A DNA stretch of 64,000 bases from Bemisia tabaci. Lineage: Eukaryota; Arthropoda; Insecta; Hemiptera; Aleyrodidae. Below are positions 11,247 to 42,655 of the stretch, in pieces. Location: contig NC_092801.1 of NCBI RefSeq assembly GCF_918797505.1, positions 31,014,487-31,078,486 on the forward strand, written 5' to 3'. Both the position numbers and the translations under genes were made by a program. The notes under the pieces were generated by a model. It had not been told where the DNA came from and ran no database searches. It saw only the letters and a list, made by a program, of their open reading frames with translations. Position 1 is the first letter of the stretch, and each line of letters opens with the position of its first letter.

Positions 11247-11304
11247 ATGAGATTCTATGCCTACCTCTTCATTATAGTTGTGTTCCGCTCGTCTTCAATC
11301 GATT
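11247..11304 (+). CDS. Gene 1 exon 1, signal peptide
   Basis: Nineteen codons plus one base starting at ATG 11247. The peptide begins MRFYAYLFIIVVF, a positive residue then a hydrophobic core, followed by RSSS as a plausible cleavage region. The donor is GTAAGT at 11305 and the exon ends in phase 1, which fits exon 2. The gene 2 first exons (for example 53456) have the same length class, phase and Y-x-Y-x-x-I-I pattern, which supports the call. Confidence 0.78.

Positions 11305-42655: not shown

Follow-up and report, generated by a model that had tools for sequence, protein, structure and literature searches.

The stretch of the whitefly Bemisia tabaci genome analysed here, 64,000 nucleotides of contig NC_092801.1 (positions 31,014,487 to 31,078,486, forward strand; hereafter the window), carries two genes, gene 1 and gene 2, in which a cysteine-rich module is encoded in front of a protease propeptide. 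The reading that we favour, with middling confidence, is that both genes are members of a papain-like protease family of whiteflies in which the pro-region includes a domain of the cysteine-stabilized alpha-beta (CS-alpha-beta) type that folds independently, and that this domain docks the zymogen. The enzymes are probably secreted.

Gene 1 occupies positions 11247-34652 of the plus strand, with nine exons, eight introns that are all GT-AG, and a single frame of 469 amino acids that ends in TAA. Exon 1 (11247..11304) supplies the start codon and a signal-like hydrophobic stretch (hydrophobicity maximum 2.62 over 11 residues), and exon 2 (17784..18031) encodes the CS-alpha-beta-type module, residues 20-102, with eight cysteines. 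The I29 propeptide inhibitor domain follows in exon 3 (18222..18417), and exon 4 (22209..22501) holds an LKPRML motif, a basic proline-rich linker and the start of the C1A peptidase (DWRVP). The rest of C1A is spread over exon 5 (24388..24496), with the active-site cysteine in KCDACYIF and tyrosine in place of Trp26; exon 6 (26962..27218), with LVDC...GCVGG and the match to Pfam PF00112; exon 7 (29435..29525), with the active-site histidine in THAVVIVGH; exon 8 (31998..32044), where LRDSELPTWG places an aspartate at the catalytic asparagine position; and exon 9 (34542..34652), with the C1A end and the stop codon. All nine exons are on the plus strand. When the first six were translated and compared with Pfam, Inhibitor_I29 (PF08246) was recovered at E 1.1e-11 (45.3 bits against a curated cut-off of 24.4) and Peptidase_C1 at E 9.8e-22 (78.5 bits against 20.7).

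Splice rules and homology were the sole basis for joining these exons, and the last of them were located by tblastn with an annotated Bemisia protein, P0001, that is 86% identical to gene 1 across 72% of the six-exon query. An earlier note on this DNA, made from the letters alone, had proposed a nine-exon gene in which signal peptide, module, I29, linker and C1A share one open frame, and this joined architecture is confirmed at the level of sequence. The same note ran the feature to 42655, which is 8 kb too long: no piece of gene 1 was found in 34652-42655. Directly upstream of the real exon 2, window positions 17408-17807 contain decayed tandem copies (82-84% identity) of its acceptor and first codons.

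The architecture recurs across the genome that contains the window (610 Mb, 151 contigs). The first six exons of gene 1 gave at least 110 exon matches, and the module of the annotated protein P0002 gave at least 29 at E<=1, at least 28 of which fall below 0.01. For 28 of the 29 listed module matches, the same strand carries an I29 exon downstream, at a distance of 194 to 8078 bases; conversely, a module is found upstream of 28 of 46 I29 matches hand-picked from the six-exon search. The module and I29 counts are lower bounds, the search scoring best candidates only, and they include near-copies. The module exons are also under constraint, with dN/dS between 0.15 and 0.51 in all eight close pairs compared (12 modules; the pairs share members and are not all independent). 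Because 28 module exons each have an I29 exon downstream and module dN/dS lies below 1, the architecture is more than chance.

Annotated proteins give the same picture. A search with gene 1 returned eight proteins, seven named Bemisia tabaci and one Coccinella, and a wider search returned at least 16 at E<=1e-20 (eight named Bemisia tabaci, seven others), a set that is incomplete, since several of the family members used as queries did not come back. Five Bemisia proteins (P0002, P0003, P0004, P0010 and P0013) have the part order of gene 1, from signal-like start to C1A; P0010 is named cathepsin L-like in the database. The splice sites of the module exons are phase-compatible. The earlier note had allowed that the module exon might never be joined to the exons behind it, but the paralogue P0012 unites module, I29, linker and C1A in 506 residues on a contig of just 1,762 bases. 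In what appears to be its genomic counterpart (L065, C9:24.90 Mb, identified by eye), 3,238 bases separate the module exon from the I29 exon; because 1,762 bases cannot hold such introns, the P0012 contig must be spliced. We take its source label, 'lgn', to denote assembled sequencing reads.

The module has the C..CxxxC..GxC..CxC spacing of the CS-alpha-beta superfamily in gene 1. We aligned 25 modules, 24 of them protease-linked and one from the protease-free locus L067, leaving out of the 29 matches one near-copy (L040), two broken frames (L046 and L066) and one locus that is partly N (L054). Cysteines C1 to C6 are complete in 20 of the 25; C4 is absent in the other five and C1 in four of these, so that C1 is missing solely where C4 is missing too, at most an indirect hint at the superfamily's disulfide pairing of C1-C4, C2-C5 and C3-C6. 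Apart from the cysteines, it is a specific loop that is conserved. The predicted model of the module contains a CxxxC helix and a CxC strand, which is consistent with the CS-alpha-beta type assigned by the earlier note, whose author had looked to fold prediction for the absence of such a core. A Foldseek search listed 72 matches at E<=10 and none at E<=0.001, and was not relied on by itself; the solved shapes that were re-aligned belong to potassium-channel peptides of scorpions and to defensin-type peptides of arthropods.

Sequence searches assign the module to no known family. No named Pfam domain exceeded its curated cut-off for the gene 1 module or the 25 aligned modules, and module profiles found no match in the PDB at E<=10. 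The arthropod defensin family PF01097 is listed at E<=1 for two of the 25 modules, with a best score of 16.7 bits against a cut-off of 20.4. Other Pfam matches of single modules (EGF-like families, cNMP_binding, DUF6431, SLR1-BP, Defensin_2, Toxin_2 and others) were likewise under their cut-offs where scored, and we assigned no membership from them. An AlphaFold2 model of full-length P0002 was too poor to be used.

The module also occurs away from proteases. L067 (1480-1779), the weakest module match, lies in an open frame that the module closes, and neither the roughly 7 kb before it nor the 3 kb after it gave a convincing I29 or C1A match to any of 21 proteins in tblastn. As a query, L067 recovers three strong relatives, on contigs C1 and C4, together with 17 weak matches. 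Of the weak matches, 15 are module exons linked to a protease, including that of gene 1 at E 0.077; another is a frame with six or more cysteines at C1:70287531. Five such frames (L067, L073, L074, L075 and L076) share CxxxC, WxxGxC and CxC and end no more than about 60 residues beyond the module. In this second set of genes, a homologous module with six cysteines sits towards the C-terminal end of a frame that contains no protease domain. For the four frames other than L067, 0.45-1.05 kb was read per locus, and none of the I29 matches from the six-exon search lies near them. When the profile of the 24 protease-linked modules was compared with that of the five protease-free ones, the two matched with 97.2% probability (E 3.1e-11, 47 columns, one pair compared). 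On this profile match, therefore, the module is one domain family with two settings, protease-linked and protease-free. A profile search of the protein database with six N-terminal regions returned 546 candidates and no module-only protein at E<=1, which is no proof of absence, because the genome search did find protease-free module genes.

We hypothesize that these parts act in sequence. The signal peptide would be cleaved off during secretion, and the disulfide-bonded module would fold as a separate unit at the tip of the zymogen, where it would dock the zymogen on a ligand or surface while I29 holds the enzyme shut. A cut within the basic linker, or close to the conserved LxxRML motif, could then remove the module together with I29, so that the module is discarded at activation and the C1A enzyme is freed. 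The motif lies between I29 and the linker in 12 of 15 family proteins (P0010 has RTL and P0007 RSL in place of RML, and P0015 has none), and the linkers, measured from the motif to DWR in 12 rows, are 61-204 residues long and net basic. The earlier note had put forward that the module could target a membrane, microbe or host surface, or be released as a peptide at maturation; both are conjectural. We favour a docking domain because the module is predicted to fold by itself, is under selection, is marked by a specific loop and not by general charge, was found ahead of I29 in every one of the 28 protease-linked cases, and has protease-free kin.

Two other roles for the module are less probable. 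It might be an active peptide, antimicrobial, channel-acting or plant-acting, that is released when the zymogen matures, with the protease partly its carrier. The resemblance of the model to scorpion and defensin-type peptides would fit such a role, as would the existence of homologous modules without a protease, yet we regard it as unlikely. Net charge ranges from -2 to +7 across the 25 aligned modules (0 to +4 in their cores) and so is not consistently cationic, a range that gives no indication of a generic cationic antimicrobial and counts against a plain antimicrobial role. Moreover, both the LxxRML motif and the linker are located C-terminal to I29, so that release of the module by itself would need another cut, for which we noticed no conserved site.

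The module might instead act solely within the molecule, as an extra folding helper or inhibitor in the pro-region. We consider this no more probable than peptide release and no less. Its invariable pairing with I29 among the protease-linked genes and its conserved loop would be expected of an internal part, but P0007, which has no module, retains a signal-like start, I29, the linker and C1A, so that the module is not generally needed, and homologous modules exist in protease-free genes.

A further possibility, which we judge improbable, is that part of the family is decaying into pseudoenzymes or pseudogenes that have no current role. Gene 1 provides some grounds for it. Its membership of the papain family is not in doubt by profile, but full activity is: because aspartate replaces the catalytic asparagine and tyrosine replaces Trp26, the product of gene 1 may have only weak enzyme activity. 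Across the family, the active cysteine is retained in all 14 aligned proteins and the histidine in all 12 that reach its site, and gene 1 has both. The catalytic asparagine site, in the same number of proteins, is occupied by asparagine in eight, by aspartate in three (gene 1, P0001 and P0004) and by phenylalanine in one (P0014); the annotated P0006 and P0011 do not extend through the histidine and asparagine sites and were excluded from those counts, and P0005, without the active-site stretch, stands outside the alignment. The frame of gene 2 is broken in this assembly, as are those of the module exons L046 and L066. Against decay, gene 1 is free of stops across nine exons, and in comparison with its nearest copy (C9:31.43-31.445 Mb) dN is below dS in all five of the nine exons compared, the C1A exon 6 coming closest to neutral (dN 0.098, dS 0.13); the low dN/dS of the module in every pair argues the same way. 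Least credible of all is that the module exon belongs to another transcript and was joined by faulty gene prediction, for although the joins in gene 1 follow splice rules and homology only, the 28 of 28 module-I29 pairings, the phase-compatible splice sites, the same joins in annotated proteins and a P0012 contig too short for the introns of its apparent counterpart come near to refuting this for the family as a whole.

Gene 2 was described in the earlier note as repeating the first four parts of gene 1. Module, I29 and linker are indeed present on the plus strand within 47133-63276, but the first exon is only weakly hydrophobic (1.05) and exists in three candidate copies, at 47133..47196, 47667..47730 and 53456..53519. 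Exon 2 (58970..59214) encodes a module without the first and fourth cysteines, exon 3 (61384..61579) I29, and exon 4 (62918..63276) the linker and the C1A start; the gene continues beyond the window, with its remaining C1A exons past the window end (locus L069). One of these, at L069 6229-6487, has a frame change at a run of A in this assembly, and gene 2 may therefore be a pseudogene, or the change an assembly slip. The first-exon copies are embedded in three longer repeats that include upstream sequence (window positions 46781-47250, 47361-47784 and 53104-53573; 93-100% identity in the stretches compared), which could be either alternative promoters and first exons or duplication debris.

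Elsewhere in the genome, the module at C3:48229167 shares 99% identity with that at C9:33169052, and those at C9:31481927 and C9:31002560 agree wherever both are readable. Such near-identical copies, on different chromosomes or in inverted order, reflect either very recent duplication or assembly duplication. Locus L072 (C10:28064001-28074000) has a family-type I29 exon and no module match in the roughly 8 kb read upstream; the acceptor of this I29 exon may sit at a different place than in genes with a module.

A front domain shared by some 28 genes offers a testable handle on the destinations, binding partners and maturation of these zymogens. The module could show how the expanded whitefly proteases are aimed or activated, and it connects them with a set of genes that carry this domain but no protease. 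More speculatively, and with rather long odds in our view, whiteflies may have reused a toxin- or defensin-shaped domain, protease-free in a few genes and as a zymogen front piece in about 28, such that a single precursor would deliver an aimed protease along with a disulfide-rich peptide, the plausible destination being plant phloem or the gut.

The protease side of this family has a precedent. The earlier note knew of no named family with this order of parts, and for the module this holds, with neither a domain family over cut-off nor a PDB sequence match. As to the proteases, Chen et al. (2016; PMC5157087) counted 111 cathepsin genes in B. tabaci and placed 35 cathepsin L-like ones in a species-specific clade. 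In the portions of that paper available to us, the clade consists of expanded papain-like genes not found in 15 other arthropods compared, its tree was built from the C1A domain only, the expansion is linked to virus acquisition and insecticide response, and neither the front cysteine module nor the linker is mentioned (PMC5157087). The clade and the present family are alike in species and in being expanded papain-like genes, and gene 1 may be one of the 35. A 2025 survey of hemipteran cathepsins, as far as its accessible text goes, describes for Sycanus bifidus a cathepsin B with a Somatomedin-B domain and a cathepsin F with cystatin-like domains, and mentions no module like that of gene 1 (PMC12653315). 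These too are enzymes of the papain type that carry an additional domain at the N-terminus, in one case a cysteine-rich one. Somatomedin-B, however, has four disulfides among its eight cysteines and is attached to a cathepsin B, whose subfamily lacks I29 in S. bifidus, and the cystatin-like domains are of a different kind (PMC12653315). Among titles and abstract openings, in a search that mostly excluded subscription papers and preprints, we found no description of a cathepsin with a defensin-like or cysteine-stabilized front domain. The protease clade was thus known already, while the front module and its protease-free kin apparently were not.

Compared with the arthropod defensins and scorpion short toxins of the CS-alpha-beta type, the whitefly module has a long loop between helix and strand in which residues are conserved, and a seventh cysteine and a further tail are usually present as well; it is fused to a protease pro-region and matches them nowhere over cut-off in sequence. 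Plant RD21-type proteases combine a papain-like enzyme, a linker and a cysteine-rich granulin domain. A linker and a cysteine-rich domain are thus common to both, but granulin stands at the C-terminus of the plant enzymes, whereas the whitefly module stands at the front.
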